DNA of 64,000 bases from a virus: IMG/VR virus record IMGVR_UViG_3300020477_001008, positions 1 through 64,000 of that record; one strand, written 5' to 3'. The notes under the pieces are model-generated. The model was not told the origin of the DNA, searched no databases, and was given only the letters and a program-made list of their open reading frames with translations. Positions 27,150 through 51,670 of this stretch are shown here, piece after piece. The position numbers and the translations under genes were made by a program. Position 1 is the stretch's first letter. Each line of letters begins with the position of its first letter.

Positions 27150-27667
27150 TAAAGCATATCTGCGCCACACTATTGCTGGCTTGTAATTTAATATCTCAAC
27201 CAGTAAGTTATGAAACAAAAGATCAGTTTGTTCATCTTATTAAAGAGTGTGCAGTTGAATATAATGCTTACTTTGCCGAACCAGATAAAAGAATTCCTGT
27301 GCCATTAGTTGTAGCAGTTGCAGGACACGAGAGTGGTTGGGGTACTAGTAGATTTGCAACAGAAGGCTATAACTTTTTTGGAATTTATGCAGGACCTAAT
27401 GCAGTAGATTATATGGTACCAAAAGATAACGATCAAATTAAATTAGTAAAATTTGAATCAATATGTGATGGTGTGTATGGCTTTATGGATCTGTTATCAA
27501 AAGATAAACGATATAAAGACTTTAGAGATCAATTAATACATCAATGGATATCTGATGATATTAATTATGATGCATTAGTTTATCTATTATCACCTATATA
27601 TGCTACTGACCCAGGCTGGGGTCCTAAAGTATTACAAACAATTAAGCAATTAGAATTAAAATATTAA
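27146..27667 (+). CDS. Bax/FlgJ-type N-acetylglucosaminidase
   Basis: This 173-aa protein has a short secretion-like N-terminus (MIKHICATLLLACNLISQPV). The glucosaminidase signature is AVAGHESGWGTSRF with the catalytic Glu62, then EGYNFFGIYAG. The family cleaves peptidoglycan glycan strands. It is a likely lysis or wall-remodelling enzyme. It is coupled to nadE (ATGA-like overlap), and its stop shares the palindrome TTAA with the converging amidinotransferase gene. Confidence 0.88.
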   Translation: MIKHICATLLLACNLISQPVSYETKDQFVHLIKECAVEYNAYFAEPDKRIPVPLVVAVAGHESGWGTSRFATEGYNFFGIYAGPNAVDYMVPKDNDQIKLVKFESICDGVYGFMDLLSKDKRYKDFRDQLIHQWISDDINYDALVYLLSPIYATDPGWGPKVLQTIKQLELKY

Positions 27668-28734
27668 CTAAAGTAATCTTCTTGATTACCTTCTCTTATA
27701 GTATCCATTGTTAAACAATGTATTCCACCATCCCAGAAATGTTTGTGTCGCCAATGCCACGGCCAAGCTTCTATTCCGTGAGCTTTAAATTTATCGTATG
27801 TTTCTTTATGGTAGCCGTTAGTAATTACTAAATTTTCATTTACACTAAAGCAGTTAACATCAAATACTGTTTCATCACAATAGCCAATCCATTCAGTTAA
27901 GTACTCTGAAACAAATTCTTGATACCATCTTTTTTTACGTGTTTTTGTAAAATAGTCAGGTACGTTCCACGCAGTCTTAGGCACTTCGATTACGTCCCAA
28001 CTTTTTAAAACTTCTGGAATATCTTCTTTATCCCAACAAGCAAGAAGTCCTGGTCTTAGTAATGCTAACTTACCATCAAGGTGTCCACCTACATTAACAA
28101 TATGATATCTAAACTTATCACCGAATGCTCTTTGTAACCATTCCATACCTAAGTTAGAACCTTTGCCTTTATGATGACCACGTGTTGGATGTACAGCAGA
28201 ATAAAAAATATCTTTGCCACATCTTAATATATTTGCTGAATGATACAATATTTTTTTATCATCGTGTTCTTCATATCCTTGTGTTGGACTATCAAAGTTA
28301 GGCATAGGCATTGAAATCCAATTATTACCTTGCTTATAATATTCTATAAAATGATTGTAAGTACCCCAGTTTTCAAAAAAACGACCATTGTTACCTGTGT
28401 AAAAATGAACTAACGTATCTCCATAAACACCAGCAGTATCTCTTGGTTGAAGTGGATGATTTGGAAATTGAAATTTAAATTTGCTTAAATCAATTTGGCC
28501 AAACTTCTTGTTTAAGTCAAATGTTATTTCTGGTCTTAATACATTAACACCAACACTTTCTAAAAAGTCTTTGACTTTTAAAACATCTTCTTCAGTCTCT
28601 TCGAATATTTGTTTTAGCCCAGCACGTAAATCATCTTCAGGAAATTGCTCTTTAGTTAACCAGTCTGTTGTATAACCTTTACCTAGTATAACTTCTTTTA
28701 ATGGTTGGAACTCTGTCCAAGAATTAGCTTTCAT
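27664..28734 (-). CDS. Amidinotransferase (glycine/inosamine amidinotransferase family)
   Basis: This 356-aa protein begins SWTEFQPLKEVILG like family members and contains VGGHLDGKLALLRPGLL (catalytic-His region). It ends with HFWDGGIHCLTMDT carrying the nucleophile Cys340. These enzymes move an amidino group from arginine to an amine, making guanidino compounds. Length is near that of full enzymes, and the His and Cys regions are intact. The product in this phage is unknown. A late-type octamer precedes the gene. Confidence 0.85.
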   Translation of the reverse strand: MKANSWTEFQPLKEVILGKGYTTDWLTKEQFPEDDLRAGLKQIFEETEEDVLKVKDFLESVGVNVLRPEITFDLNKKFGQIDLSKFKFQFPNHPLQPRDTAGVYGDTLVHFYTGNNGRFFENWGTYNHFIEYYKQGNNWISMPMPNFDSPTQGYEEHDDKKILYHSANILRCGKDIFYSAVHPTRGHHKGKGSNLGMEWLQRAFGDKFRYHIVNVGGHLDGKLALLRPGLLACWDKEDIPEVLKSWDVIEVPKTAWNVPDYFTKTRKKRWYQEFVSEYLTEWIGYCDETVFDVNCFSVNENLVITNGYHKETYDKFKAHGIEAWPWHWRHKHFWDGGIHCLTMDTIREGNQEDYFS

Positions 28735-28762
28735 TTGTACACCTTTTTTATTATTATATTAT

Positions 28763-28770
28763 TATTTATT
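28763..28770 (-). promoter_or_regulatory. Candidate T4-like late promoter
   Basis: AATAAATA on the minus strand, 28 nt upstream of the amidinotransferase ATG; AAAAAAGG then serves as the ribosome-binding site. Confidence 0.45.
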
Positions 28771-29479: not shown

Positions 29480-30661
29480 CTATCTGATTTTAATGATATT
29501 CATTAGCTCTGATAACTCAGGAAACGTTTTATCAAATGACTCTACTCTTACTAAATCCATTCTGTATATGTGCCTCTTAAACTCACCTATTTTATTACTA
29601 CTATCGCTGTTTTCCATAAATTGAATTACTTGGTTGAATCCTTTATAATTATAGTCTAAAAGCCTATCTTTTACAACCTCTTTTAAGAAGCTTGGTAATG
29701 TAGAGATGTTATAATGCTTGGGTTCGTGTAATGTATTTAGGTATACTTTCATACCAAAATTATCAGTCCAGTCTATGAATTCAGGCAAGTAAAAAGCATT
29801 AAAAATATTAACAGTATGACATATAGATAAATCTAGCTTATTTGATTCATATGTTTGCCACACTTCTAAATTCTTCAGTACTTGCTCCCATTTAGCTGGG
29901 TGTCTTTGGTATTCAAATTGTTTACCTATACCATCGATACTAAAATGCACATCAACATATTTGAAATGCGGAAATATATTATCAAGAGCATCTAATGGCA
30001 ATTGTGTTCCATTTGTGTTATAGTGTAAGCTGATTTTATGTGCGTGTCCTTGTTTTATAATCTTATGTAAAAGATCCAAATGTTCTTTTATCATAAACGG
30101 TTCACCACCTGTAAAATCCAAATGCTCTAGTACAGGAATTAGTGATTCAACATTTTTCCAAAACACTTCTGATTTTTCTGGCCAATCAAGTCTTTCATAA
30201 AACTTAATATCTTTATCAATTATATCATATTTTCTTTGTTCTGAAATCCATTTAGATGAGTATTGTGGAGAACAAATTCTGCATTTAAGATTACATATAT
30301 TTCCAAGTTTTAAATCCAAATATCTAGGAGCAGATTCTTCCCATATGATTTTATCATTAATTAAATGCTTGTATTTTGCATTATCTCTTACTCTTTTAGA
30401 TGCTTTACCCGACATTTCTTCCATCCAACATCTATGGCATCCACGTGGTTGTGTGCCAGATAAAAACCTTTTACGTATAGTAGCTAGTTCTTCACTATTC
30501 CATATTTCTTGGAATTCTTCACGTTGGATTTTATATTCTTGACCATTTTCCTTTTTTAGTGTATCTTTATACATACAGCACGGTTTTACTGTGCCGTTAG
30601 GTTGGACTTCTAAACCAGTCCAAGGAAGAATACAAAAATTTTGAGGTAATTTATTATCCAT
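29480..30661 (-). CDS. Radical SAM protein with N-terminal cysteine (twitch-like) region
   Basis: This 393-aa protein has the SAM-binding cluster motif C123/C127/C130 (GNICNLKCRICSP) and GGEP at 185-188. Auxiliary cysteines C10, C28/C29, C75 and C78 come first (NFCILPW, VKPCCMYKD, CHRCWM). It is of the same type as the proteins at 1541 and 31849. The start codon abuts that of the divergent SGNH gene (CATATG). It probably modifies a peptide or sugar; substrate unknown. Confidence 0.87.
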   Translation of the reverse strand: MDNKLPQNFCILPWTGLEVQPNGTVKPCCMYKDTLKKENGQEYKIQREEFQEIWNSEELATIRKRFLSGTQPRGCHRCWMEEMSGKASKRVRDNAKYKHLINDKIIWEESAPRYLDLKLGNICNLKCRICSPQYSSKWISEQRKYDIIDKDIKFYERLDWPEKSEVFWKNVESLIPVLEHLDFTGGEPFMIKEHLDLLHKIIKQGHAHKISLHYNTNGTQLPLDALDNIFPHFKYVDVHFSIDGIGKQFEYQRHPAKWEQVLKNLEVWQTYESNKLDLSICHTVNIFNAFYLPEFIDWTDNFGMKVYLNTLHEPKHYNISTLPSFLKEVVKDRLLDYNYKGFNQVIQFMENSDSSNKIGEFKRHIYRMDLVRVESFDKTFPELSELMNIIKIR

Positions 30662-31405
30662 ATGTTAAATGTCGCTTTTATCGGTTGTAGTTGGACGCAA
30701 GGTTACAATATTCCATATACTAGTACTTATCCGTATATTGTACACGAATTGTTAAACAAATACAAGGTTGAAAACAGAGTAGTTAATGCTGGAAGAAATG
30801 GTTCCAGTTGGGTTACATATCCAAGTACTATAAAATATATTAACGAAACGTATGATGCTGATATATTTGTAGTTCAGCATACAACACCGGACAGAGGTTT
30901 ATTGCAGTTTTCATCTAGCCAGTGGAAGTACCAAAAAATAGCTAGAGATCACGATGTGTATGAAAACTATTTGCAGTTATGGGATAACACACAAAGTTAT
31001 TATCATTTAACAATAGGAATGGCTGAACAAATAATTGCTGATGAAAAATCAGAATTAGTACAACATATTTTTCACGAAATACAACGCAAGAGTACATTAA
31101 CAAAACAACAAATAATTGATAGAGTTTCTTATTGGTATAATCAAGAAAGACATCATCCTCTTAACTTTGAAAAATATACAGAAGCAGTTGAGTATTGTAA
31201 TTATTATATTAAAGATAAAAACAAAAAAATTGTAAATTTATTTTGGTTAGATGATGAGTTTTGTAAATCATTTACAAATCTACCCAATAAAATAGTTGTA
31301 CAAAACGAAATAGATTTTAAACAATATGCAATTGATTCTGGATATCACTTTGATGATAAAGGAAATAAAATATTAGCTGAGGTACTAATACCCCAGCTTT
31401 TATAG
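30662..31405 (+). CDS. SGNH/GDSL hydrolase-like protein
   Basis: This 247-aa protein has FIGCSWTQG (residues 6-14) at the N-terminus, matching the GDSL/SGNH block I with nucleophile Ser. AGRNGSSW lies at about 43-50 (block II Gly/Asn), and the C-terminus has DSGYHFDDKGNKIL with the Asp-x-x-His pair. SGNH enzymes are esterases, often removing or adding acyl groups on sugars. It is the only plus-strand gene between 27.7 and 64 kb and has no usable Shine-Dalgarno. Confidence 0.75.
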   Translation: MLNVAFIGCSWTQGYNIPYTSTYPYIVHELLNKYKVENRVVNAGRNGSSWVTYPSTIKYINETYDADIFVVQHTTPDRGLLQFSSSQWKYQKIARDHDVYENYLQLWDNTQSYYHLTIGMAEQIIADEKSELVQHIFHEIQRKSTLTKQQIIDRVSYWYNQERHHPLNFEKYTEAVEYCNYYIKDKNKKIVNLFWLDDEFCKSFTNLPNKIVVQNEIDFKQYAIDSGYHFDDKGNKILAEVLIPQLL

Positions 31406-31848: not shown

Positions 31849-33072
31849 CTATGATTTAGCTATTTTTTCAAGATCTAGCAATTCTGGAAATATATCACGC
31901 CAATTTTCATTTCTTATATTATCTAAACGATTTGTGATTTCATACCAGTCTTTTATTAAGTGAGAGTAGTCAGCTTCATACAAATAACTTATTAGCGATT
32001 CATATCTTGTATGATTAGCATCTGTATTTTCTTTCATCCACGTTTGAGCATTAGTCCATTTCTCTGCAAGTTTATCTTTCATATCTTTTGGTAGTATTTG
32101 TATTCTCAAATGCTCAGGAGTTTGCAAAGGATTTAATAAACTATGTGGACCAACCCATTCCTTTTTAATCCAATCAATATGAAAATCTGAAACGTGAAAA
32201 CTATTAAACACGTCAACACACGACGCAACAAAAAAGAAAGCCCTAGGACATTTTTCAAAAACATTTTTTCTATTTTCTTCAACTTGCTCCCAGCTTTGCC
32301 CAGCACGAAGATATTCACCTCGCTTATGTGTTGCATCTAAACTAGCACCAATTTCTACATATTCAAACTTGTCCCATTCTTTGAATACGTCCATTCCTTT
32401 ATAAATTACTTGGCTAAAGTTTGTATTGTACTTTAGTCTTACGTGAAACATTTTCTTTTCTACTAATTTTTTTAATATTCTATAATGCTCTTCCATTATT
32501 AATGGTTCACCACCGGCAAAATATACTTCTTCTAAACCATCTACATATGGCTCAACTACTTCCCAAAATCTTTTTTCGTCTTTGTATGGTCTAATAACTT
32601 TAGAGTGATCTGGTTTACTGAATAATTTAGTTTGGTCTTCATACCAGCTTGATGATAAATCTGGACCACAAGTTCTACATTTAAAGTTACATAAGTTACT
32701 AAATCTAAAATCAATGTAAGGTAAATTAACTTTGTCAACAGTACCATCTTCTTTAGTTGATTCTACAACATCCCAATGATGATTTAATTTTTCATTAGAC
32801 CAAGTTCTAGTTGTATTAATACTATGTCTTTCTTGTTCGTAACAACGTGTACAGATCTTATTAGCTTTTCCATTTAGTAAGTCTTTACGTAATTGTTTTT
32901 GTTGCGGAGAATTCCAAGCTTGTTCTAATGTTATTTCTTTTAAGTTACCCATTATATCGTTACTATCACTCATACAACAAGTCAATACTCTACCATCTGG
33001 CCACGTGTGTAAATGTGTCCACGGTATCATACAAAAAGTTTTTGATTTAAGTAACTTATCTTTATCTAGCAT
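31849..33072 (-). CDS. Radical SAM protein with N-terminal cysteine (twitch-like) region
   Basis: This 407-aa protein starts at ATG 33072 (MLDKDKLLKSKTFC); the longer frame runs into the upstream gene. Auxiliary cysteines are C14, C32/C33, C74 and C77. The SAM motif is C128/C132/C135 (NLCNFKCRTCGP), followed by FAGGEPLIM. It lies directly downstream of a glycosyltransferase-like gene with an 11-nt overlap, so the two are co-translated, which links it to the sugar-modification genes. Confidence 0.87.
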   Translation of the reverse strand: MLDKDKLLKSKTFCMIPWTHLHTWPDGRVLTCCMSDSNDIMGNLKEITLEQAWNSPQQKQLRKDLLNGKANKICTRCYEQERHSINTTRTWSNEKLNHHWDVVESTKEDGTVDKVNLPYIDFRFSNLCNFKCRTCGPDLSSSWYEDQTKLFSKPDHSKVIRPYKDEKRFWEVVEPYVDGLEEVYFAGGEPLIMEEHYRILKKLVEKKMFHVRLKYNTNFSQVIYKGMDVFKEWDKFEYVEIGASLDATHKRGEYLRAGQSWEQVEENRKNVFEKCPRAFFFVASCVDVFNSFHVSDFHIDWIKKEWVGPHSLLNPLQTPEHLRIQILPKDMKDKLAEKWTNAQTWMKENTDANHTRYESLISYLYEADYSHLIKDWYEITNRLDNIRNENWRDIFPELLDLEKIAKS

Positions 33073-34072
33073 TGATTTCGCTTTTCCAACTTGGAATAAG
33101 CAGATTTTCAAACACACTTCTGTTATGAGAAAGTTTTGCTTTTATATCATCTTGTTGATATAATTCTGTCCATTCCTCAGGTGTTTTATGTACAAGAGTT
33201 TCTATCTCGTTCCACATAGCACTATATCTTTCATTGTAAGGTAAACTATCAAATGCTTCGTGGTTATATAATTCTGTGTAAGGTTCAAAGCCATTATCTA
33301 TTAAGAACTTCATTGTATCCTTACAACCGTGAACGATAAAAATTTTATTGTACAAAATTGGTTTCCAAGTTTTTTCTGTTATAAACAAACTAGTATCACT
33401 AACAATACTTTCATTTACTATTTCAAATCCCGCATAGTGATAATTTGGAGGTAATATTTCTTGATTTTGTCCTTCGTCAATTTCTTTACCTGTAAAATCT
33501 AATTTAAGATCATCTCCTTGAAATTTTGGATTAGTAAAATAATGATCAGGCACATTATTACCATATCTATTAATCCAAGATATCTCGCCAAATCCATCTA
33601 ATCCATTATCAAACAAATCAGTGACTAATTTTGCTCTATGTGTTTTTGCCGCTCCATTTAAACAAATAAATCTTCTAGTTTTTCTTTCATATGCTTTGGG
33701 TTGTTTAATACTTTTATTTTGTTTGTTTATTATTGTTCTGGATAGTAATTCAAAAGGTGCTGACACTATGTTTACAGGAAAATCTTTACGTTCAGTTCCT
33801 GCAAACCATTTATCTACATTTTCTTTTAGATTAACATCAGCCATTACTAAACTAGCATTATCTTCAGGCCAACCTTCTAAAGCTTCACGTACATACGGTA
33901 AAAAATTTTCTTTTGTTTGGAAATGTATTTCACCTTCCCACACTCTTTTAATTACAATATGATGTGTTTCTTTTTTATCTTGATTATTACGAATCCAATA
34001 ATTTAGGGCATTAAGTTGTCCTAAAATATCGTGTGTACAATCTAAATCAACTATGTGAAGTTCTTTATTCAT
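33062..34072 (-). CDS. Glycosyltransferase-like protein with TEK motif (1)
   Basis: This 336-aa protein has VNESIVSDTSLFITEKTWKP (Glu221, TEK at 232-234) and then a hydrophobic FIVHG strand. The acidic-residue plus 'F(I/F)TEK' arrangement resembles the donor-binding part of GT-B glycosyltransferases of the exostosin/fucosyltransferase (GT47/GT10-like) type. An upstream RFICLNGAAKTHRAKL motif is shared with two of the other four proteins. The identity of the sugar is unknown. It overlaps rpiB by ATGA. Confidence 0.55.
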   Translation of the reverse strand: MNKELHIVDLDCTHDILGQLNALNYWIRNNQDKKETHHIVIKRVWEGEIHFQTKENFLPYVREALEGWPEDNASLVMADVNLKENVDKWFAGTERKDFPVNIVSAPFELLSRTIINKQNKSIKQPKAYERKTRRFICLNGAAKTHRAKLVTDLFDNGLDGFGEISWINRYGNNVPDHYFTNPKFQGDDLKLDFTGKEIDEGQNQEILPPNYHYAGFEIVNESIVSDTSLFITEKTWKPILYNKIFIVHGCKDTMKFLIDNGFEPYTELYNHEAFDSLPYNERYSAMWNEIETLVHKTPEEWTELYQQDDIKAKLSHNRSVFENLLIPSWKSEINAR

Positions 34073-34539
34073 TTGTTTAATCTCTTTAACATATTTACTC
34101 TTTTTTGATGACGCCCACCTTCAAATTTAGTTTGGAAAAAATCTTCTATCATATATTGTGCTGTATCAGTATCTGTATAATCTGCACCTAAACACATAAC
34201 ATTCATATCGTTGTGTTCACGTGCTTGTTCAACATCATACCTATCTCTACAAACTACTGCTCTAATATTTTGAAATCTATTAGCCGCAATACAAACACCA
34301 AAACCAGATCCACATATTAAAATTCCGTGTGTATATATGTCAAATGTTTCACCAAACTTTTTAACATAATTAGGATAATCACATTTATCATTTGTATATG
34401 TTCCTACGTCTTGCATAACAGCAATTGGAAATGGTCCTTCATTATCGCTGTTAACAGGACACACCCAATCCATTAATTCATTTTTTAATTCAAGTCCTCT
34501 ATGGTCCGATCCCCACAATAAATCTATTGTTTTAGCCAT
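34069..34539 (-). CDS. rpiB: RpiB/LacAB-family sugar-phosphate isomerase
   Basis: This 156-aa protein has GSDHRG (10-15), DVGTYTN, ILICGSGFGVCIAANR (catalytic Cys76 region) and RDRYDVEQAREHNDMNVMCLGADYTD, the full RpiB pattern. RpiB interconverts ribose-5-phosphate and ribulose-5-phosphate; relatives isomerise other sugar phosphates. Its place between two transferase-like genes suggests it makes a sugar precursor for this cluster rather than serving only nucleotide supply. Confidence 0.9.
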   Translation of the reverse strand: MAKTIDLLWGSDHRGLELKNELMDWVCPVNSDNEGPFPIAVMQDVGTYTNDKCDYPNYVKKFGETFDIYTHGILICGSGFGVCIAANRFQNIRAVVCRDRYDVEQAREHNDMNVMCLGADYTDTDTAQYMIEDFFQTKFEGGRHQKRVNMLKRLNK

Positions 34540-35852
34540 TCTGTAAATCCTTCTAAATATTTTTCCTTGTTAAGTTTTAAAAACAGCTCTCTGTTATATA
34601 AAAGCTTGTCGTATATTTCAAAATACATACGATGTAAATCTTCATTCTTCATACCACACATTAAATTAATTTGTCTCCAGGCACTATCAATTCTTTCTGC
34701 TGAATTTTCTATCCAATCATAGTTACTATCAAACATTGGTTCAAATGTTTTGTAACCACAATCTTGTAGATGTGCTAGTGTACCACGTGAGCCAACTACA
34801 ATAAATGGATGTAGTTGTAATATTGGCTGATATACTTTTTCAGTTATAAACAACGGATCACCTGGTGCTGATTCGCAAACAGTCTCATTAATAATTGAAA
34901 AATAACTATTGGAATAGTGTTCAACTTTCATTCTTCTTTGATTTAATTGTTCACCTATATCATCAGCTGTGTTATCTAAAACAATCGGTATGCTTTCTTT
35001 TAAAAACTTTTGCATATCGTCAACTGCTTCTTTTGGATCACCTTTAGTAAACTGTTCAGCATCTTTTAAAGTAAAACTATCTACACTAGGTGTGAAATAA
35101 CGATTTAAGAAACTTGTATAACCATCTTTTAAATAGTTTCTTTTATACAATTGACTCATAATCCATATTCTATGTGGTCTAGGATTTGCATTACGACAAA
35201 CAAATTTCATTGTTCTAATTTCACTATCATCAACTGTATCTGGATGTACTAGTTCATCTGCAACTTTTATTTCACGCATTCTATCACGTGAAAAATACAT
35301 ACGATCAGTTTCTAAACGATAATTTAGTTCAAATATATTCAAGCCAAATGTTTTAATATTTGATTGCAGTCTACGTTTTTTAAGATATGTTTTAAAGTTT
35401 TCTTCCATACGCAAGTCACCAAACACAAGATTAATCTTGTCATCAGGTATACCCTTATCACCAAGAGTCCATAACAAGTCGTCCATAAATCTTGGCATAT
35501 TTAAATTGAAGCCTTCTGTAGGAAACCATATTAATATTTTAATTTGATCGTTGCATTTTATTTGATTTAATATATCTTCATCAATAAAATGAAACACGTT
35601 CTCGTAAAAGAAACTTAGATCAATCCATTCTGGTTGTATATGAAACCAAAATGTTTCTCCACTTGTTGCTAAAGCATCTGGGTTATTTTTTGTATATTCT
35701 ATGTTACAGTAATCTAATATCTCTTCAAGATATTCATATTTTACATTACCCCAATTGTTATGATGTTCATTGTTTCTTTTCCAGAAAGGAATGCAGTTAG
35801 GCAAAGGCCTACCATCTATCCACGTTTGATATAATAAATTAATTTTCTTCAT
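34524..35852 (-). CDS. Glycosyltransferase-like protein with TEK motif (2)
   Basis: This 442-aa protein, the longest of the five, has INETVCESAPGDPLFITEKV (TEK 337-339) followed by YQPILQLHPFIVVGSRG. Upstream is MKFVCRNANPRPHRIWIMSQ (215-234), like the RFICLNG...HR segment of protein 1. An extra N-terminal domain of about 200 residues precedes the shared part. It overlaps rpiB by 16 nt and the SGNH gene by 14 nt. Confidence 0.55.
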   Translation of the reverse strand: MKKINLLYQTWIDGRPLPNCIPFWKRNNEHHNNWGNVKYEYLEEILDYCNIEYTKNNPDALATSGETFWFHIQPEWIDLSFFYENVFHFIDEDILNQIKCNDQIKILIWFPTEGFNLNMPRFMDDLLWTLGDKGIPDDKINLVFGDLRMEENFKTYLKKRRLQSNIKTFGLNIFELNYRLETDRMYFSRDRMREIKVADELVHPDTVDDSEIRTMKFVCRNANPRPHRIWIMSQLYKRNYLKDGYTSFLNRYFTPSVDSFTLKDAEQFTKGDPKEAVDDMQKFLKESIPIVLDNTADDIGEQLNQRRMKVEHYSNSYFSIINETVCESAPGDPLFITEKVYQPILQLHPFIVVGSRGTLAHLQDCGYKTFEPMFDSNYDWIENSAERIDSAWRQINLMCGMKNEDLHRMYFEIYDKLLYNRELFLKLNKEKYLEGFTEWLKQ

Positions 35853-36597
35853 CTTGTATCCAATGTTCTACAACTTTATCAGCAAATGCTTTATGACATT
35901 CAGTTGACGGGTGACCAATCATAATTTTCTCGCCTTTTATTTCTGCCCAACCTTGTGGTTCTTTATTAATATGATCTTCTAACAAATTTCCAGTAAAGTC
36001 GTTTGCAATACCCCATTCAGCTAGTCCACCATCTTTACCGTGAAACCAAAACTGACTCCAATCAACTTGGTTATACCAAAATTCTAATTCGTCTCTTCCT
36101 TTAATTACACCTGCGTGATATTCATCTGTAAAAGTCTTTTGCCAGCAAAATAGTTTTAATCTTACGTTATGTACTTTACAATAATTTTGTAAAGCAACTA
36201 TTGAGCATAATGTTCTTAAAGCCTGTGTAACATTATGAAAATTATATTTCATATAATATTTTATAGGTTTTGATATTTTAGAATCTGCATCATTAATCCA
36301 GTCTAAATTACCTGCACTCTTTAGCCAAGTATAATTTTCTTTAGCTACAACGTGGTCACTTGTATGTTCTAACTTTCCTTTTGTAGTAACTTCAAATCTG
36401 TCTATTCCTGATATTTGCATTATAGCCATATCGGGTTTGAAATTAGAAATAGCTTTCATTAAATTTCTAATATTCATTTCATTACCACCACCACCTTCAG
36501 CAACATTGAACAATTCATATCTTTGTTCTAACCAATTTGCCCAGCTGTCTGGTGCGTGTGTAAAGGAACAACCTGATGTAACTAATCTTACTTGCAT
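35839..36597 (-). CDS. SGNH/GDSL hydrolase-like protein
   Basis: This 252-aa protein has TSGCSFTHAPDSWANWL at the N-terminus (block I, Ser at about 10), GGGGNEMNIRNL (block II), and a C-terminal GHPSTECHKAFADKVVEHW with the catalytic His. It is a probable acyl-hydrolase or acyltransferase acting on glycans. It lies directly upstream of transferase 2 with a 14-nt overlap. Confidence 0.7.
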   Translation of the reverse strand: MQVRLVTSGCSFTHAPDSWANWLEQRYELFNVAEGGGGNEMNIRNLMKAISNFKPDMAIMQISGIDRFEVTTKGKLEHTSDHVVAKENYTWLKSAGNLDWINDADSKISKPIKYYMKYNFHNVTQALRTLCSIVALQNYCKVHNVRLKLFCWQKTFTDEYHAGVIKGRDELEFWYNQVDWSQFWFHGKDGGLAEWGIANDFTGNLLEDHINKEPQGWAEIKGEKIMIGHPSTECHKAFADKVVEHWIQDEEN

Positions 36598-43662: not shown

Positions 43663-43914
43663 TTAAGTCTTCAATATTACGTGATGTTTTTTTGGTTTAA
43701 CTCTAGGTTTGTATTTTTTAGTTAACAAATCTTTAGCTTTCTTTTCCAGCTTACTAAATCTACAATTGAATAATTTTCTTGAACCTTTACTAGTGACTAT
43801 AACTGGTTGATTGTGTTCATCTAATTCAATTGATTTAACTTTAGCCACAACGTTACGAAAGCGTCCCACCTCGATATAATCTCCAACTTTAATTTCTACT
43901 TTATAACTTTTCAT
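43663..43914 (-). CDS. Small SH3/KOW-like protein, 83 aa
   Basis: VGDYIEVGRFRNVVAKVKSI is followed by ELDEHNQPVIVTSKGSRKLF and a very basic tail (KKYKPRVKPKKHH). The GDYIEVGRFRN...GxRKLF pattern is familiar from short hypothetical proteins of marine T4-like phages and fits a small nucleic-acid-binding barrel. It overlaps the end of pepA. Confidence 0.6.
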   Translation of the reverse strand: MKSYKVEIKVGDYIEVGRFRNVVAKVKSIELDEHNQPVIVTSKGSRKLFNCRFSKLEKKAKDLLTKKYKPRVKPKKHHVILKT

Positions 43915-45409
43915 TATGTATCCATTTATTTAATAATTGTACACCCCAACCTGTAGCACCACCTGATGCTGTCATTGAACCTTTATCATTCCAAGTAACA
44001 CCTGCAATATCTAAATGAGCCCACGGTGTATCATTAACAAATCTTTGCAAAAATTGTGCCGCTGTTGTTGAACTTGCTTCACCACCTTTACCTACATTGT
44101 GCATATCTGCAATAGTTGAATCAACATATTTGTCGTATCTTTCACCTAGTGGATCACAAGGTAAACGCCAAAGTTTTTCATTAACTTCTTTTCCAGCTTT
44201 TAATAGTTGATCACTTAATTCATCATTGTTTGAAAATAATCCACCAAGTTGATCTCCTAACGCAATTGAAATAGCACCTGTGAGTGTTGCTAGATTAACC
44301 ATAGCTGATGGTTTATATTTGTCTTGTGTATACCATAAGCAATCAGCTAATACTACTCTACCTTCAGCATCTGTATTATCAATTTCAATAGTTTGTCCAC
44401 TTAATGATTTGATAACGTCACCTGGTTTATATGCATTACTTGATACCATATTTTCTACTAGTCCAATAACGCCTACAGCATTTACTTTTGATTTACGCAT
44501 AGCTAATGACATCATTGTACCAACAACTACTGCTGATCCACCCATATCATATTTCATATCTTTTAAACCTCTAGATGGTTTAATTGAATAGCCACCTGTA
44601 TCAAAACATACACCTTTACCAACTAACGCAATTGGTTTTGAATCTCCACCGTTCATCCATTCCATTACAACTACTTTGGATTCTCTAGCACTACCTTGTC
44701 CTACTGACAATAATGCTCTCATACCTATATCTTCTAATTCTTTTTCACCAAATACTTTTATGTTTAATCCTGTGTCTACTGCCATTGCTGTAACTCTATC
44801 TGCATATGATTGTGGATATAAAATATTAGATGGTTCTGAAATTAAATCTTTTGTAAAAAATATACTTTGAGCTATTGCTTTTTTATCTTGAAATAATTTA
44901 TTTGCAGACTCTTCATTGTCATCTTGAATAACTAAATCAAAATTTGTATATTTAGGAACTTTATCACCTGTATAATATTTGTTGAAGTTATATGTTTTTA
45001 GCATCATACCAAATGCAATATTAACTCCCATAGTATCAGCATAAATGGCTACCTTGCCTTTTGTTCCTCTGCTTTGTAATAAGCTATATATTTGTCCACC
45101 TAAGTCTTTACATTTATTTTCATCTCTTGATTCTGAAAAAGAATTAGGATTTAAAATTAATTTTTTTAAATCACCTAAACTAATAATCAATGCTTCATTG
45201 CTGTTTAATTTATTTGTAGTAACAAAAAATCCTGATCCAAAGTCTCCTTTGTAATCATTATTAGTAACAGTATTAGTAATTGCACCTTCTGTTAATTCGT
45301 CAACTCTTTTTGCTGACTCTGATAATATAAATTCTTTTTCTTTTTTAGATATGAAATGTATTTCACAACTTGTTTTTTCTTCTATTGTTTTTTTAAATTC
45401 TATATTCAT
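43901..45409 (-). CDS. pepA: Leucyl aminopeptidase (M17, PepA family)
   Basis: This 502-aa protein starts at ATG 45409 after GAAGGAAA. It keeps the two-metal centre and catalytic residues: K265, D270 (VGKGVCFDTGG), K277, D288 (KYDMGG), and D347/E349/R351 (NTDAEGR). Length equals that of cellular PepA. These enzymes remove N-terminal residues from peptides, and E. coli PepA also binds DNA as a regulator. A full-length copy in a phage is unusual. It follows the SET-domain gene by 1 nt. Confidence 0.93.
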   Translation of the reverse strand: MNIEFKKTIEEKTSCEIHFISKKEKEFILSESAKRVDELTEGAITNTVTNNDYKGDFGSGFFVTTNKLNSNEALIISLGDLKKLILNPNSFSESRDENKCKDLGGQIYSLLQSRGTKGKVAIYADTMGVNIAFGMMLKTYNFNKYYTGDKVPKYTNFDLVIQDDNEESANKLFQDKKAIAQSIFFTKDLISEPSNILYPQSYADRVTAMAVDTGLNIKVFGEKELEDIGMRALLSVGQGSARESKVVVMEWMNGGDSKPIALVGKGVCFDTGGYSIKPSRGLKDMKYDMGGSAVVVGTMMSLAMRKSKVNAVGVIGLVENMVSSNAYKPGDVIKSLSGQTIEIDNTDAEGRVVLADCLWYTQDKYKPSAMVNLATLTGAISIALGDQLGGLFSNNDELSDQLLKAGKEVNEKLWRLPCDPLGERYDKYVDSTIADMHNVGKGGEASSTTAAQFLQRFVNDTPWAHLDIAGVTWNDKGSMTASGGATGWGVQLLNKWIHNEKL

Positions 45410-45410
45410 A

Positions 45411-45731
45411 TTAATTTCCTTCTTTATCGAAATCAGCATACATTGTATACTTTGCTGTTAATTCTTCGCCTGCTTTAATTTTTTTAATAGTACACAAATA
45501 ACGAACAGGTAATTGATGCCAAAAGCCTTTTAAGTTTATACAATTAGGTGTATCTGAATGATTATAAAAAGCACCTAAGGCAGTTCTAATAGCACCGTGT
45601 GGAAAGTTTTTGTTTTCAATATGTACAATACCTAATACAACTTCTTTATCAAAATCTTTTGTAGCAAACAAGCCTAAGCCTTGCACTTTAGATTCTTTAA
45701 TTGTTAAGCCATCTGGTAAAGGTTTATACAT
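45411..45731 (-). CDS. SET-domain protein (lysine methyltransferase-like)
   Basis: This 106-aa protein has GLGLFATKDFDKEVVLG (18-34), FYNHSDTPNCINLK with NHSDTPNC (57-64), and GEELTAKYT (88-96), matching the SET blocks that bind S-adenosylmethionine and place the target lysine. At 106 aa it is a minimal SET domain without pre- or post-SET parts. Such short viral forms can methylate host or viral proteins. The target is unknown. It is tightly linked to pepA. Confidence 0.85.
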   Translation of the reverse strand: MYKPLPDGLTIKESKVQGLGLFATKDFDKEVVLGIVHIENKNFPHGAIRTALGAFYNHSDTPNCINLKGFWHQLPVRYLCTIKKIKAGEELTAKYTMYADFDKEGN

Positions 45732-46040: not shown

Positions 46041-46102
46041 ACGTAAATTCCTAAATAAATTGCTATCCACAATACTATCGCCCAAAATATTATAGTTCTC
46101 AT
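46034..46102 (-). CDS. Micro-gene, 22-aa membrane peptide
   Basis: MRTIIFWAIVLWIAIYLGIY then VW, a single hydrophobic helix. It overlaps the stop of the radical SAM gene and the start of the lipoprotein gene. Ribosome-binding site weak. Confidence 0.35.
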   Translation of the reverse strand: MRTIIFWAIVLWIAIYLGIYVW

Positions 46103-47484
46103 AAGCAACTTTCATAAAATTCTTCCAATTCCGGAAAAACTTTTTTAAATGATTTGTTCCTTCTTTTATCATATTCATTAATATATCTTACAAAATCATT
46201 TCTAGTTATATTTAAGTTAATTTGCTCAGCTTCGTTTGGATCTGCTTCTGCATATGACTTAAAACGCATTAATTTAGCTAGTTCAAAATCAAAAAACCCT
46301 TTATATGGGTTGTTATGTGTTTCAGCATTATTCTCCATAACTGCCACAGCAGGATCTAATAATGATCCATATTTTTTAGGTAATATTGAAGCACTCAAAT
46401 AAGCAGGGTGCCTTAAAATTGCTGTGTCTATTGTTATTGGTACTTTTCTATCATTGCTATAAAATTCTGTTTTTAATGGATGTATTATATCAAGTAACTT
46501 ATGCAACCTTGGCATACTTAATAATCCAGTTGTACACATAATTGTAATTTTTGTTTTTGGTAATTCAGTTAGCACACGACACATATTATCATACCATTGA
46601 TTAAAGTCTAACCCATCTCTAATATACTCTGCTTGTTCGCCAAATGTATCAACTGATGTGTATAGTCTTGTTAAACCAATTTTATTATCTAATGTTATAC
46701 GTTTCATTTTTTCAATGTATTGATCAAACAGTTTATCTGGTACGCAACCATTTGAGTTAATGCTTAATTCTAATTCTGGTCTTGGATTGTTATTAACATA
46801 ATCTAATACTTTAAAAGTATCTTTTGCTAATAGAGGTTCCCCGCCTGTAATTCTAAAAACCTGGAGAGTTTTGTACAGGTCGGGAAACCATTTCCAAAAA
46901 GCGTCAACATAAGGATTATGTTCACGATGCGGAATCGGTAATTTGCCTTGTTGTTTTAGCCAAGACAAGTTATTAAATTTATCGCTTGTAGGATATGCAC
47001 CTTCAGATTGTATTTCTTCCATCCAGGAACTACTGAATGCAGGACTACAATATGCACATTTTAAATTACAAACATTTGAAAAACTAACTTCAACATAAGT
47101 TGGATTAACATTTTCTACGCCAACCATTTTAGCAGTTTCTTCTAAATATGGTTTAGCCCACGGCTCGTGTGATTTAGAACTTCTATCGCTATAATGTTCT
47201 GGACCTAGATCTTCTACGTTCCAACAGTATTGACATTCAGGAGGTCGTACTCCTTTTAACATTAATTCTCTTTGTGATTTTTTATATTCAGTATTGTGTA
47301 AAGCACTAGGATTAGTTTTTAATTCTTCTACAGGAACTTGGTGTGTTCTAGGGTGATGACAACTATGTGTATGACCATATTGTAAATGAATAGTTGACTG
47401 ATACCATTTCGCTAGACAGAATGATGGCGATACAGCATTAAGCTGATCTCTTGTCTGCTTGATTTTAATAACTTCATCTGTCAT
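46099..47484 (-). CDS. Radical SAM protein, second subtype (SCHHP type)
   Basis: This 461-aa protein has N-terminal C23 (SFCLAKW), C42 (SCHHPRTHQVP), C84/C87 (ECQYCWNVEDLG), the SAM motif C139/C143/C146 (NVCNLKCAYCSP) and FRITGGEPLLAK. It is the paralogue of the protein at 42127. It overlaps a 49-aa membrane-peptide gene upstream and is followed by the lipoprotein, SET and pepA genes, all minus. Confidence 0.87.
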   Translation of the reverse strand: MTDEVIKIKQTRDQLNAVSPSFCLAKWYQSTIHLQYGHTHSCHHPRTHQVPVEELKTNPSALHNTEYKKSQRELMLKGVRPPECQYCWNVEDLGPEHYSDRSSKSHEPWAKPYLEETAKMVGVENVNPTYVEVSFSNVCNLKCAYCSPAFSSSWMEEIQSEGAYPTSDKFNNLSWLKQQGKLPIPHREHNPYVDAFWKWFPDLYKTLQVFRITGGEPLLAKDTFKVLDYVNNNPRPELELSINSNGCVPDKLFDQYIEKMKRITLDNKIGLTRLYTSVDTFGEQAEYIRDGLDFNQWYDNMCRVLTELPKTKITIMCTTGLLSMPRLHKLLDIIHPLKTEFYSNDRKVPITIDTAILRHPAYLSASILPKKYGSLLDPAVAVMENNAETHNNPYKGFFDFELAKLMRFKSYAEADPNEAEQINLNITRNDFVRYINEYDKRRNKSFKKVFPELEEFYESCL

Positions 47485-47623
47485 TTTTTTTAAAAAAACT
47501 TTTGATATAATTCCATAGACATTGTGTATATGCAGTTATAACAACAGCAGTAATTAATATTATACAAATTGGTATCCATATAATCCAAAAAATAATATCA
47601 CCTATTGTATCTAATATTTTCAT
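47474..47623 (-). CDS. Micro-gene, 49-aa membrane peptide
   Basis: MKILDTIGDIIFWIIWIPIC is followed by IILITAVVITAYTQCLW and a basic end (NYIKSFFKKNDR). It starts at a perfect ATGA overlap with the 83-aa gene and ends 11 nt inside the radical SAM gene. Both overlaps support it. Confidence 0.6.
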   Translation of the reverse strand: MKILDTIGDIIFWIIWIPICIILITAVVITAYTQCLWNYIKSFFKKNDR

Positions 47624-47871
47624 TGTGCTTCTATTTGAAAGCCTTTCCACGGTTTAGGTTTGTATGTACCGTTATGTAGTGCTTCCATATTTTTTGCTAA
47701 TCGCTCTTCGTGTTCTGCTTTTAGTCTTGCTTTTTTTATCTCCATATCTTCATAAATTTTTTCAACGTTTTCTTCACCTGTTATAATCTGTGCTGTCTTT
47801 ATCATTGCACCCATTGGTAATCCAAACACAAATGTAAAAAATAATATTGCCATTGCTATTACTGTTTTCAT
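47620..47871 (-). CDS. Membrane-anchored helical protein, 83 aa
   Basis: An N-terminal hydrophobic segment (VIAMAILFFTFVFGLPMGAM) is followed by a long charged helix (ENVEKIYEDMEIKKARLKAE) and a Pro/Trp end (YKPKPWKGFQ). It may be a signal anchor with a coiled coil outside or inside. It is coupled to the transferase gene at 47868. Confidence 0.6.
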   Translation of the reverse strand: MKTVIAMAILFFTFVFGLPMGAMIKTAQIITGEENVEKIYEDMEIKKARLKAEHEERLAKNMEALHNGTYKPKPWKGFQIEAQ

Positions 47872-48863
47872 ATAGTTTTATAAGTTATCCTTCCTTCAGA
47901 ATCTTTTTCTGTAACTAAATTTCCTTGTCTAGGTGGATTCCAATAAACTTTTTTAAAGAACTTTGATCCAGCTTCGTCTATTTCTGAAACAGGCATATTT
48001 AATTTTTTACGTAATTGATCTCCAAGAAATCTTGTTTCTTTTTCAAGCTTTTCCATACTCCAATTGTATTTTGACTTAACACAATATTGATCTTCTCCTG
48101 CAAACTTTGGCATAATTTCTTCTGTGAAATATTTTGTGTGCCAATCAAAGTGTGCAACATTTACAAAGTCAAACGTTGGATCTAAATTTGTTAAGTAACA
48201 ACCTAATCTTGTTCCATACAAAGCCCATAAGCCGTTTTCCACATCTCTACCTATGTTACTCCATATGAGTAATCTCCAATAATTTTTATCGTGTAAACTT
48301 GCTTCAAAATTATCTGGATCAACTTTTACTCCTCTATCCAAAGACATCTTTACACCTTCTCTAAATCCTGCTCTATAAGCCTGATAAGGTGTTGCATTAT
48401 TCATTACATAACTAAATGCTTCATTGAATTGAATATAATTTAAGTCCCAACAAAAGTCTACTTTGGATCTTTCATCCTCTGCAATCTCGTGTGTTTTCAT
48501 ATCTAAAACATATTGTACAGGCCAACATTTAATTCCACCATTACCATATACTAGTCCATTAATACTATTAATACCACACCAACTAATAACAGAACTTTCT
48601 AGTTTAACATCAGCTTGTCTAAAATCAATTACTTGATCAAAAAACTTTGGATCAACAATATTATCACCGTCAACAGAAATAAATCTATCCGTTTCACTTG
48701 CTTCAGCACAGGCTTTGTGTGCCGCATCTGAGCCTAATACTCCGTGTGTTCTTTTAGCCCAAGGACATTTTGTTTTTAAGTCAGCCCAGTTTTCTTCCAT
48801 ATTAGGTTCGTCAAAACTAATATAAAAAATGTCAATGTCAGTTACATCAATTATTTTACTCAT
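47868..48863 (-). CDS. GT-A-like glycosyltransferase
   Basis: This 331-aa protein has RFISVDGDNIVDPKFF with DGD at residues 65-67, the metal-binding DxD of GT-A nucleotide-sugar transferases. It begins DVTDIDIFYISFDEPNMEEN, a typical first beta strand. Later FDWHTKYF and FVNVAHF lie where acceptor residues might be. Proteins of this look occur in large marine phages. Donor and acceptor unknown. Confidence 0.65.
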   Translation of the reverse strand: MSKIIDVTDIDIFYISFDEPNMEENWADLKTKCPWAKRTHGVLGSDAAHKACAEASETDRFISVDGDNIVDPKFFDQVIDFRQADVKLESSVISWCGINSINGLVYGNGGIKCWPVQYVLDMKTHEIAEDERSKVDFCWDLNYIQFNEAFSYVMNNATPYQAYRAGFREGVKMSLDRGVKVDPDNFEASLHDKNYWRLLIWSNIGRDVENGLWALYGTRLGCYLTNLDPTFDFVNVAHFDWHTKYFTEEIMPKFAGEDQYCVKSKYNWSMEKLEKETRFLGDQLRKKLNMPVSEIDEAGSKFFKKVYWNPPRQGNLVTEKDSEGRITYKTI

Positions 48864-49452
48864 CTTTTAATTCCTTATAACAATAATCGTCGTATATTCT
48901 TTTTGTATAAACACAATTATCTGTGTGTTTAGTATTATAAGAAACGACTGCTTCTTTATTTGTTAGCAAGTATAAAACCGGAATACGTGCATACTCAATT
49001 AAATTATGTGGATCACTATCGTAACATAAAATAAAATCTAAAAATTCTTGTCCTTCTATATTAATATTTTCAATTTTAGTATCATTTGTTATTTTGTATT
49101 TTTTCATCAAATAAGCTCTGAATGTTTCATCAAATTTAATAGTTAATTTTTGTTCTTTTATATTGTTTTCCACAATTACGTCCCCAGCTTCTAGTTTAGG
49201 TATTTTAAATAACCTATCATCTATAAGCTTTACAGCAATATCTGTTTTCTTCAACTTTATTGAATATTTACTCTGTTTTACATCCTTATCTATGTAATAA
49301 TGCACAGGATTTTTCTTGTTATTAATAAAGTCTTCTACGTCTTTATAATCAATTTCAAAGTATGTTTTAGACAAATCAGGTTGGTTACGATTAATACCTA
49401 ATATATTTCTAGTTTCTAAATCAAATAAAACGTATCTTTTTTCGTCTATCAT
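48856..49452 (-). CDS. Hypothetical protein, 198 aa
   Basis: It begins MIDEKRYVLFDLETRNILGI and has strand-rich middle segments (KYSIKLKKTDIAVKLIDDRL) and a Tyr-rich end (TKRIYDDYCYKELKDE). The opening FDLETRNI is not a DEDD nuclease motif in context. No family is recognised. It lies between two glycosyltransferase genes and overlaps both. Confidence 0.6.
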   Translation of the reverse strand: MIDEKRYVLFDLETRNILGINRNQPDLSKTYFEIDYKDVEDFINNKKNPVHYYIDKDVKQSKYSIKLKKTDIAVKLIDDRLFKIPKLEAGDVIVENNIKEQKLTIKFDETFRAYLMKKYKITNDTKIENINIEGQEFLDFILCYDSDPHNLIEYARIPVLYLLTNKEAVVSYNTKHTDNCVYTKRIYDDYCYKELKDE

Positions 49453-50300
49453 AATCCAATTTTCTTTTCTAATTTAACTATTATTTCATCTGTAAGAAAT
49501 TCTTTGTCTTGATAATGAAATGGTAAAGTTTGTTTATAATTTCCAATTTTTAAATCACAATCTTTTGAAAAATATGCACCAATATGTTTTGTCCAATTTT
49601 TAGAATAACCAGGACCCCAACCTTGTACATTTGATTTCATATGTACAAAAGTAGGATAGTTTAAATGTTTATTACATATTTCATTGCCTATGCCTAATAT
49701 TTTTCCAGCCAAAGCATAAACTACATCAGCACTTAAAAATGTTTGTCTTGGTGGTACTAAAAAGTCTTCTTTAAATGTATCATAGTTTCTAAAAATATGT
49801 TCAACTAATTTAAAATACTCTTCTGCTACATCGCTATTTTTATTAAAATGAAAAAATGCTGTATATATATTTGGTAAATTATTTGCTAAAAATGTTTGTC
49901 TATTTGAATTATTATTAGCTATTTCATTTCTATAAGTTTTAACTTGAGATGGTGATGTTAAATTTCTATTTGAAAAATAATCCCACCAATGTCCTATGTC
50001 ACTTAAAAATAACATATCAGTATCTAAAATAACTGTATGTTGATATGGAGTCATATAATAATATTTCCATTTGTTATTAATCTTCCAATCAGCCAATTGT
50101 GCGTCATCATTGAATGGCATTTCTATTACTTGATCAAATACAGTTTTATATTTGTCAGGAACAATTGTATCTTTGTCAACAGCAATACTAATACGTCTAA
50201 CAGATCTTTGTGTGTTGGTAATACTTAAAGCAAGAGCATAAGCCATACGAACATAATCATAATTACTATTTTGTGCTATTACTAGATATCCTTTACTCAT
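49449..50300 (-). CDS. GT-A/GT8-like glycosyltransferase
   Basis: This 283-aa protein has MTPYQHTVILDTDMLFLSDI with DTD at 93-95, the DxD of GT8-type and related nucleotide-sugar transferases. It starts KGYLVIAQNSNYDYVRMAYA, as in proteins that retain a first Rossmann strand. The C-terminal LPFHYQDKEF could hold the third metal ligand His. It is a paralogue-like partner of the protein at 50792. Confidence 0.7.
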   Translation of the reverse strand: MSKGYLVIAQNSNYDYVRMAYALALSITNTQRSVRRISIAVDKDTIVPDKYKTVFDQVIEMPFNDDAQLADWKINNKWKYYYMTPYQHTVILDTDMLFLSDIGHWWDYFSNRNLTSPSQVKTYRNEIANNNSNRQTFLANNLPNIYTAFFHFNKNSDVAEEYFKLVEHIFRNYDTFKEDFLVPPRQTFLSADVVYALAGKILGIGNEICNKHLNYPTFVHMKSNVQGWGPGYSKNWTKHIGAYFSKDCDLKIGNYKQTLPFHYQDKEFLTDEIIVKLEKKIGL

Positions 50301-50475
50301 TATCTAACTCTTCCCAACTGTTATCAGCTTCTTTATTTTTTTTGTATTTTTTTAAAACAGATGTATCACCACTGCCAATTGCTTTAAAAAAATCAGACAT
50401 CGCTGAACTTTTTTCTTTAATTGATTGACAACCAGTTAGCATTGTTATTGCAATTATTAATACAAATATTCTCAT
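50293..50475 (-). CDS. Small lipoprotein, 60 aa
   Basis: MRIFVLIIAITMLTGC is a lipoprotein signal with lipobox LTGC (Cys16), followed by 44 charged residues (SIKEKSSAMSDFFKAIGSGD). It may sit in the inner or outer membrane. It overlaps the transferase and mazG genes. Confidence 0.65.
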   Translation of the reverse strand: MRIFVLIIAITMLTGCQSIKEKSSAMSDFFKAIGSGDTSVLKKYKKNKEADNSWEELDNE

Positions 50476-50792
50476 TATCTATTATCGCCATCTCCGTGGA
50501 TTGTATTATTTTTTAATCTTTCTTCAAGCTTTGTCTTGTTTGTATCGGCAACTTCTTGTAATGTAATATTTAAATCACCAGCTAGTGCTGAAAGATACCA
50601 AAGCACATCTCCTAATTCTTTTGTAATAGTTTCTTTAAAGTTTTCTTTTGCACCATCTCTAATGTGCTTTTTTACTTTTTCAGCTACTTCGCCTGCTTCT
50701 CCACATAGCCCTAAAGTTGGATATAATGTTGTATATTCTTTTGGATATCGCTTCATAGATGCAACAAATTCTTGATACTCGTTAAATGTCAT
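50475..50792 (-). CDS. mazG: MazG-like nucleotide pyrophosphohydrolase
   Basis: This 105-aa protein has the helical MazG pattern: GLCGEAGEVAEKVKKH (EAGE at 32-35) and ITKELGDVLWYLSALAGDL (E59, D62). These acidic residues bind Mg and hydrolyse NTPs or related nucleotides to the monophosphate plus pyrophosphate. Marine phage MazG proteins have been proposed to adjust host nucleotide pools or alarmone levels. Length is that of single-domain phage MazG. Confidence 0.9.
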   Translation of the reverse strand: MTFNEYQEFVASMKRYPKEYTTLYPTLGLCGEAGEVAEKVKKHIRDGAKENFKETITKELGDVLWYLSALAGDLNITLQEVADTNKTKLEERLKNNTIHGDGDNR

Positions 50793-51670
50793 TAGCTGTT
50801 CTCCTTAATAATTTTATCTGATAATCTGTTTAACGCAAATTTATTCATTACGTGTATGTTTGTGTTTTCAGTTTGACATAATAGATAGTCGCCTGGGTTG
50901 TTTGGTTTTTCTAATAAAAATTTAAATTTAGTTCCTTCAACATCTATAAAATCATCAAAGCCGTGTGAGTGTTGTAAAAATGGAACTGGTAATGGCTTAA
51001 CAAAATTATTATTTGCCATTCCATTTAATAAATGTATAGCTATACTAAATGCAAAATCATTTCTAAATGTTGGTGCATCAAAATGATAAAGTAATTTATA
51101 ATATTCATAATTGCGTTGTACGTGATTAACCATATCAAATAACATTTCAGATTCTTTTGTTTTTCTAAAAAATACTGCGGTTGCCCAATAAAAGTTAATT
51201 GACTGTTCTCCTATTCTAGAAAACTCTTCAAATTTTCTAGTTGAAAATATATCTTTTGAATCTCTATTAATTTGTATATCATAATCTAATTCCCAACACA
51301 TATCAAATTGATTATTGCAAATCATATAATCAACATCTAATATTAATGTTTCATCATATGGAGAGTAATGGAAAGAGTTATGCCTATCAATATTATAAAA
51401 TGTTTCAATTTGTTTAGAATATCTAGTATCGTAAAATCTTTTTTTGTTTGGAGTGTTTCTTCGTCTTTCAATTAGAATATTATCTATTTTACTATCAACA
51501 AATTCTTTACTATATGCTTTGTATAGCCAATTAACTGTGCCTTCATCTGTAACAATAGTTACAGAATTATTTTTCATATGTTTTTTGATTAGACAGCTAT
51601 TTGCTAAAGCTATCTTTCCGTAATCGATATGACGATTATTATGTGCGTAAAATAGAATACCTCTAGACAT
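50792..51670 (-). CDS. GT-A-like glycosyltransferase
   Basis: This 292-aa protein has FHYSPYDETLILDVDYMICN with DVD at 112-114. It begins SRGILFYAHNNRHIDYGKIA, like the protein at 49449, and the DxD lies in the same context. It ends with FLQHSHGFDDFIDVEG and a conserved-looking HVMNKFALNRLSD. A nucleotide-sugar transferase of unknown specificity. Confidence 0.65.
   Translation of the reverse strand: MSRGILFYAHNNRHIDYGKIALANSCLIKKHMKNNSVTIVTDEGTVNWLYKAYSKEFVDSKIDNILIERRRNTPNKKRFYDTRYSKQIETFYNIDRHNSFHYSPYDETLILDVDYMICNNQFDMCWELDYDIQINRDSKDIFSTRKFEEFSRIGEQSINFYWATAVFFRKTKESEMLFDMVNHVQRNYEYYKLLYHFDAPTFRNDFAFSIAIHLLNGMANNNFVKPLPVPFLQHSHGFDDFIDVEGTKFKFLLEKPNNPGDYLLCQTENTNIHVMNKFALNRLSDKIIKENS

Follow-up and report, generated by a model that had tools for sequence, protein, structure and literature searches.

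A conserved glycosyltransferase and radical SAM operon behind the fibre genes of uncultured aquatic myoviruses, a possible virion-decoration locus

The window analysed here comprises bases 1-64,000 of the 242,646-base virus record IMGVR_UViG_3300020477_001008. Directly behind a group of genes for virion fibre proteins it carries an island of genes for radical S-adenosylmethionine (SAM) enzymes (rSAM1 to rSAM4), glycosyltransferases with DxD motifs (DxD1 to DxD3), glycosyltransferase-like proteins with a (T/S)EK motif (TEK1 to TEK5) and SGNH proteins (SGNH0 to SGNH3). The real core of this island is the gene row hyp115-DxD3-DxD2-hyp198-DxD1-rSAM4, which adjoins the fibre genes. What we observed are the gene content and its conservation, the protein folds, a motif for a promoter, and linkage with virion-protein homologs. 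We interpret the island as a virion-decoration locus in which the phage's own fibre proteins would be the substrate of glycosylation and radical modification, and we give this reading an even chance. More tentatively, it may represent a dedicated, widespread line by which uncultured aquatic myoviruses both glycosylate their tail fibres and modify them through radical SAM chemistry, each of the paralogous GT-B and SGNH enzymes having a fixed role. Gene calls were mechanical, the comparison contigs are fragments and some searches were limited to sequence patterns. Coordinates are those of the record, which coincide with those of the window, and genes lie on the minus strand unless noted.

The tail sheath of the record is closest to that of PA5oct-like Pseudomonas jumbo phages (41%), and the carrier of the island, a large uncultured aquatic myovirus, is related to PA5oct by tail sheath and fibre genes. 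Scans of viral contigs detected the operon layout in many uncultured phage contigs; no relatives of DxD1, rSAM4, TEK1 or hyp115 were found in 50,697 phage records, sequenced isolates included.

The core emerged from a scan with DxD1 (47868-48863), which gave 87 relatives; 24 non-redundant loci with enough flank were counted. Upstream of DxD1, hyp115 (51676-52023), the first gene of the operon, was present in 24/24 of these loci, two genes of the DxD2/3 type in 23/24, and fibre genes stood just upstream in 23/24. A radical SAM gene followed downstream in 24/24, and in 23/24 it was of the type of rSAM4 (46099-47484). Orthologs of DxD2 (49449-50300) in relatives are 68-86% identical, and hyp198 (48856-49452), which has no Pfam or PHROG match, is a conserved partner gene kept in relatives. 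TEK genes occurred in only 9 and SGNH genes in only 11 of the 24 loci and are thus accessory.

The linkage was also tested in the reverse direction, with the virion protein gene fib216 (54437-55087) as a query blind to the operon. Downstream of 63 viral loci with 6 kb of flank, DxD2/3 was found in 52, hyp115 in 51, DxD1 in 41 and a radical SAM gene in 36, several of these loci being curtailed by the flank limit. When reduced to 39 non-redundant loci, 30 contained both fib309 and DxD2/3, 3 only fib309, none only DxD and 6 neither. The co-occurrence (30/33 versus 0/6) has a Fisher p-value of 2.6e-5, which is optimistic because the loci share ancestry.

The virion genes big2046, fib216, fib439 and fib309 are collinear with the genes for a large virion protein, gp357, gp358/359 and gp360 of Pseudomonas phage PA5oct (Arenbergviridae). 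The fibre genes match gp355, gp357, gp358/359 and gp360 in order, and there are mass-spectrometry notes on gp355, 357, 358, 359 and 360. Identities are 40% for fib216 to gp357, 48% for the fibre/baseplate protein fib439 (53031-54350) to gp359, and 27% for fib309 (52099-53028) to gp360, all three counterparts having been detected by mass spectrometry. Fib309, our proposed acceptor, is rich in serine and threonine (27%); its orthologs average 27% Ser+Thr versus 17% for the proteins of the same loci.

Between fib309 and hyp115 lies a predicted sigma-70-type promoter (TTGACT-N17-TATTAT, 52046-52074, 10/12 match). The motif TTGAC[AT]-N17-TATNNT with its fixed 17-base spacer was present upstream of hyp115 with at least 10/12 matches in 48/51 distinct loci, compared with 223/2000 random upstream regions (11%). 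The upstream regions of other island genes were mostly near or below this control level; exceptions were DxD1 (34%) and, in small samples, TEK4, RpiB and SGNH3. The sequence thus indicates that the operon has its own promoter at its head gene. A terminator-like hairpin with a T-run (52020-52075, minus strand) overlaps the -10 region and extends to the start codon of hyp115, and therefore the operon looks like a unit separate from the fibre genes. The hairpin could be an attenuator; in relatives, a dyad is often found at the same site over the ribosome-binding site. T4-type late promoters were rejected, the octamer TATAAATA being depleted in the window (3 found versus 15 expected). Elsewhere in the window, a glutamine riboswitch (RF01739, 61.4 bits, gathering threshold 35) is located at 10819-10871 on the plus strand.

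The AlphaFold2 model of DxD1 (predicted local distance difference test, pLDDT, 83.9) matched RmlT, the PBCV-1 capsid glycosyltransferase (2p6w/2p72), WrtF and SunS, among others, in Foldseek; the best nine GT-A matches had probabilities of 0.92-1.00 with low template-modelling (TM) scores. By its modelled fold DxD1 is a GT-A glycosyltransferase. DxD1-type domains also form the C-terminal parts of proteins of 545-1326 amino acids in five contigs (L060, L024, L077, L065, L039), some of which contain weak repeated copies on the N-terminal side. A joint profile of DxD2 (DTD motif) and DxD3 (50792-51670, DVD motif) weakly hit glycogenin-1 (E 0.0014), which suggests that both are glycogenin-like (GT8-like) transferases. 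Glycogenin is a self-glycosylating protein.

The four radical SAM proteins of the island are all members of N_Twi_rSAM (NF033640, curated cut-off 170 bits), with 381 bits for rSAM1 (29480-30661), 399 for rSAM2 (31849-33117; 60-76% in relatives), 311 for rSAM3 (42127-43659) and 348 for rSAM4. In 4/4 the cysteines of the twitch (auxiliary-cluster) part lie N-terminal to the CxxxCxxC core, which reads CNLKCAYC in rSAM4. The whole record contains 23 radical SAM matches, 17 of them above the Pfam cut-off, and 22 matches to NF033640. Four large relatives (246-343 kb) have 15-21 radical SAM/NF033640 matches and a fifth (266 kb) only 7. About a dozen of the radical SAM genes lie at 198.8-220 kb; in the array at 198,815-215,619 they adjoin each other with few other genes between and include a tandem pair of 71% identity (206077-207477 and 207467-209038). 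Another group at 88,161-97,770 comprises two 2-oxoglutarate-Fe(II) oxygenases, an ABC ATPase, a KedN5-like B12 radical SAM protein, a second radical SAM protein and a fatty acid desaturase.

TEK2 (34524-35852) was modelled with AlphaFold2 from an input of 101 viral homologs (pLDDT 94.4, predicted TM score 0.93). Its top Foldseek matches in the PDB were GT-B proteins, namely VldE (1.9e-5), SdgB, BshA and the fucosyltransferase QsFucT, with TM scores of about 0.4, and by modelled fold TEK2 is a GT-B glycosyltransferase. Structure models cover TEK2 and DxD1; TEK1 (33062-34072), TEK3 (36610-37557), TEK4 (37734-38651) and TEK5 (39868-41061) are placed as GT-B-like by alignment with the family, in which R, E, EK and G are invariant. 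The TEK motif had brought membership in the GT10 fucosyltransferases into consideration. This was rejected: the family models were silent, and plant and giant-virus fucosyltransferases were only weak fold matches. As no Pfam glycosyltransferase family matched any of TEK1-5 at E<=0.1, we do not file them under GT10. In cellular genomes the only TEK match was on a 3-kb contig, in a pattern-limited scan that distant members could escape, so that TEK appears to be a nearly virus-only family.

The best evidence that these enzymes belong together comes from natural fusions. Single open reading frames in other viral contigs join SGNH to TEK, TEK to TEK, a B12-type radical SAM domain to TEK, TEK to a UDP-glucose/GDP-mannose dehydrogenase, and rSAM to rSAM. 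BFVD holds a further TEK-like protein annotated as a UDP-glucose/GDP-mannose-type dehydrogenase. The fusions therefore point to joint action of the enzyme types and to the use of nucleotide sugars by TEK proteins.

The SGNH proteins are SGNH0 (30662-31405, plus strand, divergent from rSAM1; GCSWT, weak GDSL lipase match 0.0088), SGNH1 (35839-36597; GCSFT...GHP), SGNH2 (39107-39871; GDSFT...GHP) and SGNH3 (41051-41791; GCSFT...NHP), which is hydrolase/acyltransferase-like. The block I serine (S10) and the C-terminal catalytic histidine (H231) are invariant in 67 family sequences, and the family profile hit GDSL structures at 2e-6. Single proteins stayed below the Pfam gathering cut-off (best 16.6 versus 23.6 bits), and their placement in SGNH/GDSL is by motif and profile, not by that cut-off. 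Within the record, the first profiles found TEK1-5 and SGNH0-3 in the island only; a wider SGNH profile added one gene at 216.5 kb.

Further enzymes accompany these families. RpiB (34069-34539) is a sugar-phosphate isomerase (PF02502, 1.2e-41). The GNAT-superfamily-like protein (38651-39091) is present in some relatives only, and its support is indirect, through the MCD C-terminal domain (PF05292, 1.7e-5). The amidinotransferase (27664-28734; GGIHC) is StrB1/SxtG-like and nearest to StrB1 (1bwd 4.9e-22, 6u1r 2.4e-17). With its relative in contig L094 it shares 95.5% identity, against 63-88% for neighbouring genes, and it may thus be unusually constrained or recently exchanged. Amidinotransferase-like genes also occur near TEK genes in contigs L027, L055, L060 and L077.

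Relatives of 40-90% identity share the order rSAM4-rSAM3-SGNH3-TEK5-SGNH2-TEK4-TEK3-SGNH1-TEK2-(RpiB)-TEK1-rSAM2, followed by rSAM1/SGNH0. Exceptions are one relative with two genes swapped and the most distant relatives, which lack some genes. An earlier sequence-only reading of the window had proposed one coordinated pathway that builds or edits a glycan, or glycosylates and radically modifies a protein, on virion or host. The order is kept in many viral contigs, so these genes do not lie scattered, and TEK2 as modelled proved glycosyltransferase-like; together with the fusions, this supports the coordinated pathway. As to virion or host, the position of the core behind the fibre genes and under its own promoter favours the virion without proving it.

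The same reading took the alternation of SGNH and transferase genes for repeated duplication of a two-gene module, and this part was not supported. In the TEK tree each TEK forms one clade with 1:1 orthologs, TEK3 pairing with TEK5 and TEK1 with TEK4. In the SGNH tree SGNH0 stands apart, and the branching order of SGNH1-3 was not settled. In distant relatives, too, each paralog finds an ortholog of its own. We rejected a recent origin of the SGNH-TEK pairs by tandem duplication: the trees do not match and the paralogs predate the clade. Because each TEK and SGNH has 1:1 orthologs in relatives, the alternation is old.

All gene types of that reading are present where it placed them, with its counts of four radical SAM, five TEK, three DxD (47868, 49449, 50792) and four SGNH proteins (GxS[FW]T plus C-terminal His) upheld, as are RpiB and the amidinotransferase. 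The listed genes lie inside its span of 27664-51670; the unit itself begins at 52023 with hyp115. Packing is tight (most gaps -16 to +15 bases), with only four exact 4-base ATGA overlaps instead of the many claimed. Gaps of 745 and 443 bases set apart the amidinotransferase, rSAM1/SGNH0 and rSAM2, and SGNH0 is on the opposite strand to the rest of the island. Overlooked were an M17 leucyl aminopeptidase (43901-45439; NF002075, 590 bits, above cut-off), a SET-domain-like protein (45411-45731; recognised by sequence motifs) and a MazG-like pyrophosphatase (50475-50792; phrog_229, 3e-34). The M17 and SET-like genes were rejected as pathway members, not being conserved in relatives, and are considered local additions. 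Two small genes encode a putative lipoprotein or membrane protein with an N-terminal hydrophobic stretch (50293-50475) and a protein with a single N-terminal hydrophobic segment (47620-47871).

What does the island act on? The main rival to fibre decoration, which we judge unlikely, is that the enzymes rebuild or cap host lipopolysaccharide or capsule and thereby exclude rival phages or free the progeny. SGNH and GNAT enzymes are frequent in O-antigen decoration, and a host-type sigma-70 promoter permits early expression. This is also the published reading of the hypervariable pelagimyophage host recognition clusters, where glycosyltransferases and radical SAM cassettes lie beside tail fibres (PMC7029224). 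However, the island enzymes have no hydrophobic segments and look soluble, and the core remains tied to the fibre genes while its flanks vary. Moreover, neither GtrA (PF04138) nor GT2 (PF00535) was found in the record, which is possibly incomplete and was not searched for other flippases and lipid-carrier enzymes. The lack of these two matches in the record as it stands speaks against Gtr-type O-antigen conversion.

It is improbable that the island makes a soluble small molecule or glycoconjugate, such as an aminocyclitol- or nucleotide-sugar-like metabolite, and modifies no macromolecule. The StrB1-like amidinotransferase, RpiB, the VldE-type fold match and the twitch-type radical SAM proteins would suit this, yet the VldE match reflects the shared GT-B fold (about 11% identity), and the number of transferases, the glycogenin-like proteins and the fibre linkage suit a protein acceptor better. 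Still less probable is a modification of phage DNA bases by glycosyltransferases and radical SAM enzymes against restriction. DNA-modifying glycosyltransferases of phages are well known (cited in PMC12619734), but in this record no thymidylate-synthase-type hydroxymethylase scored above cut-off, the sole weak match lying inside an SMC-like ATPase; no TET/JBP match was found in a search whose control was also silent; and the linkage is to fibre genes. That the fibre boundary is just a hotspot for unrelated cargo without a common pathway, as the interspersed, non-conserved M17 and SET-like genes might suggest, is very improbable given the near-identical core order and content in 23/24 loci, the single head promoter and the gene fusions.

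Soluble enzymes, no GtrA or GT2 found and no sign of DNA-base hydroxymethylation together fit a cytosolic acceptor, for which the simplest candidates are the neighbouring fibres, as these are rich in serine and threonine and are produced in that same cell. For fibre decoration we infer the enzyme activities, the order of the steps and the substrate as follows. The promoter that immediately follows the final tail-fibre gene would drive hyp115, two glycogenin-like and one GT-A transferase and then N-terminal-twitch radical SAM enzymes; further in lies an accessory section with the TEK GT-B transferases, the acyl-group enzymes of the SGNH type, RpiB, GNAT and amidinotransferase. Within the cytosol of the host, the DxD transferases would place the first sugars onto serine or threonine of the phage fibres, with fib309 as the leading candidate, and the TEK transferases would lengthen the glycan. 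RpiB and the amidinotransferase could provide or alter unusual sugars, the SGNH and GNAT proteins could attach or strip acetyl groups, and the radical SAM enzymes might perform C-H chemistry on the glycan or adjacent residues.

Several points weigh against fibre decoration. PA5oct, with the same collinear virion genes, has no glycosyltransferase/radical SAM operon behind gp360; hence the fibres do not require the operon. TEK and SGNH clusters also occur on contigs where no fibre gene was seen within about 10 kb. Fibre regions are hotspots for variable genes (PMC7029224), and the position of the core may reflect this. Since the operon has its own promoter and, in this window, a terminator-like hairpin sets it apart from fib309, co-expression with the fibres is not necessary. 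The contigs are of common ancestry, so that our locus counts overstate independence. Finally, the radical SAM proteins, the most numerous enzymes of the locus, have no assigned substrate, and the fibre is a proposed one.

Among published descriptions, the pelagimyophage cluster (PMC7029224) comes closest; it is from marine myoviruses and brings together, in a single region, genes for tail fibres, glycosyltransferases and radical SAM cassettes. Our locus differs in its fixed core order, its own promoter, its TEK and SGNH families with orthologs and its PA5oct-related phage. That radical SAM genes abound in marine phages has been reported repeatedly, with no clear role for them (PMC5332604, PMC7150976); in viral communities of the Tasman Sea, both radical SAM and glycosyltransferase genes were enriched (PMC7150976). 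The T4-like marine genome TARA_ERS488813_N000010 has 12 radical SAM genes in 183 kb, which were read as iron-sulfur (Fe-S) metabolism, with no mention of glycosyltransferase or fibre linkage in the passage on them (PMC5332604); in the present record no phage-encoded A-type Fe-S carrier was found. Mycobacteriophage virions also carry glycans on their proteins (Freeman et al. 2023, cited in PMC12619734), in their case on capsid and tail-tube, and the citing passage does not mention radical SAM enzymes. The PBCV-1 enzyme, with a GT-A fold similar to DxD1, takes part in glycosylating the virus's own capsid; it is from an algal virus, with a TM score of 0.40 to the target and about 13% identity to DxD1. 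Vibrio phage K566 has six N_Twi_rSAM-type matches, two above cut-off and several adjoining, whereas K566/K567 show 22% identity to rSAM2 and no TEK1 or DxD1 match. The adjacent N_Twi_rSAM-like genes of K566 (161,548-168,284) could serve as a cultured model for the radical SAM family.

The new elements are a core of fixed order with its promoter, a virion linkage examined from either side, and the TEK family with its fusions. N-terminal-twitch radical SAM enzymes are here connected with a glycosyltransferase operon that is conserved and follows the fibre genes; this gives them a concrete, testable candidate substrate, the adjoining fibre protein. If fibre decoration is true, this would define a nearly virus-only GT-B family and give N_Twi_rSAM a role, and radical chemistry would, to our knowledge for the first time in a viral system, be seen to tailor glycoproteins of the virion. 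In many uncultured aquatic phages, the specificity of adsorption would then hinge on post-translational fibre chemistry that is invisible to genome-based host-range prediction.

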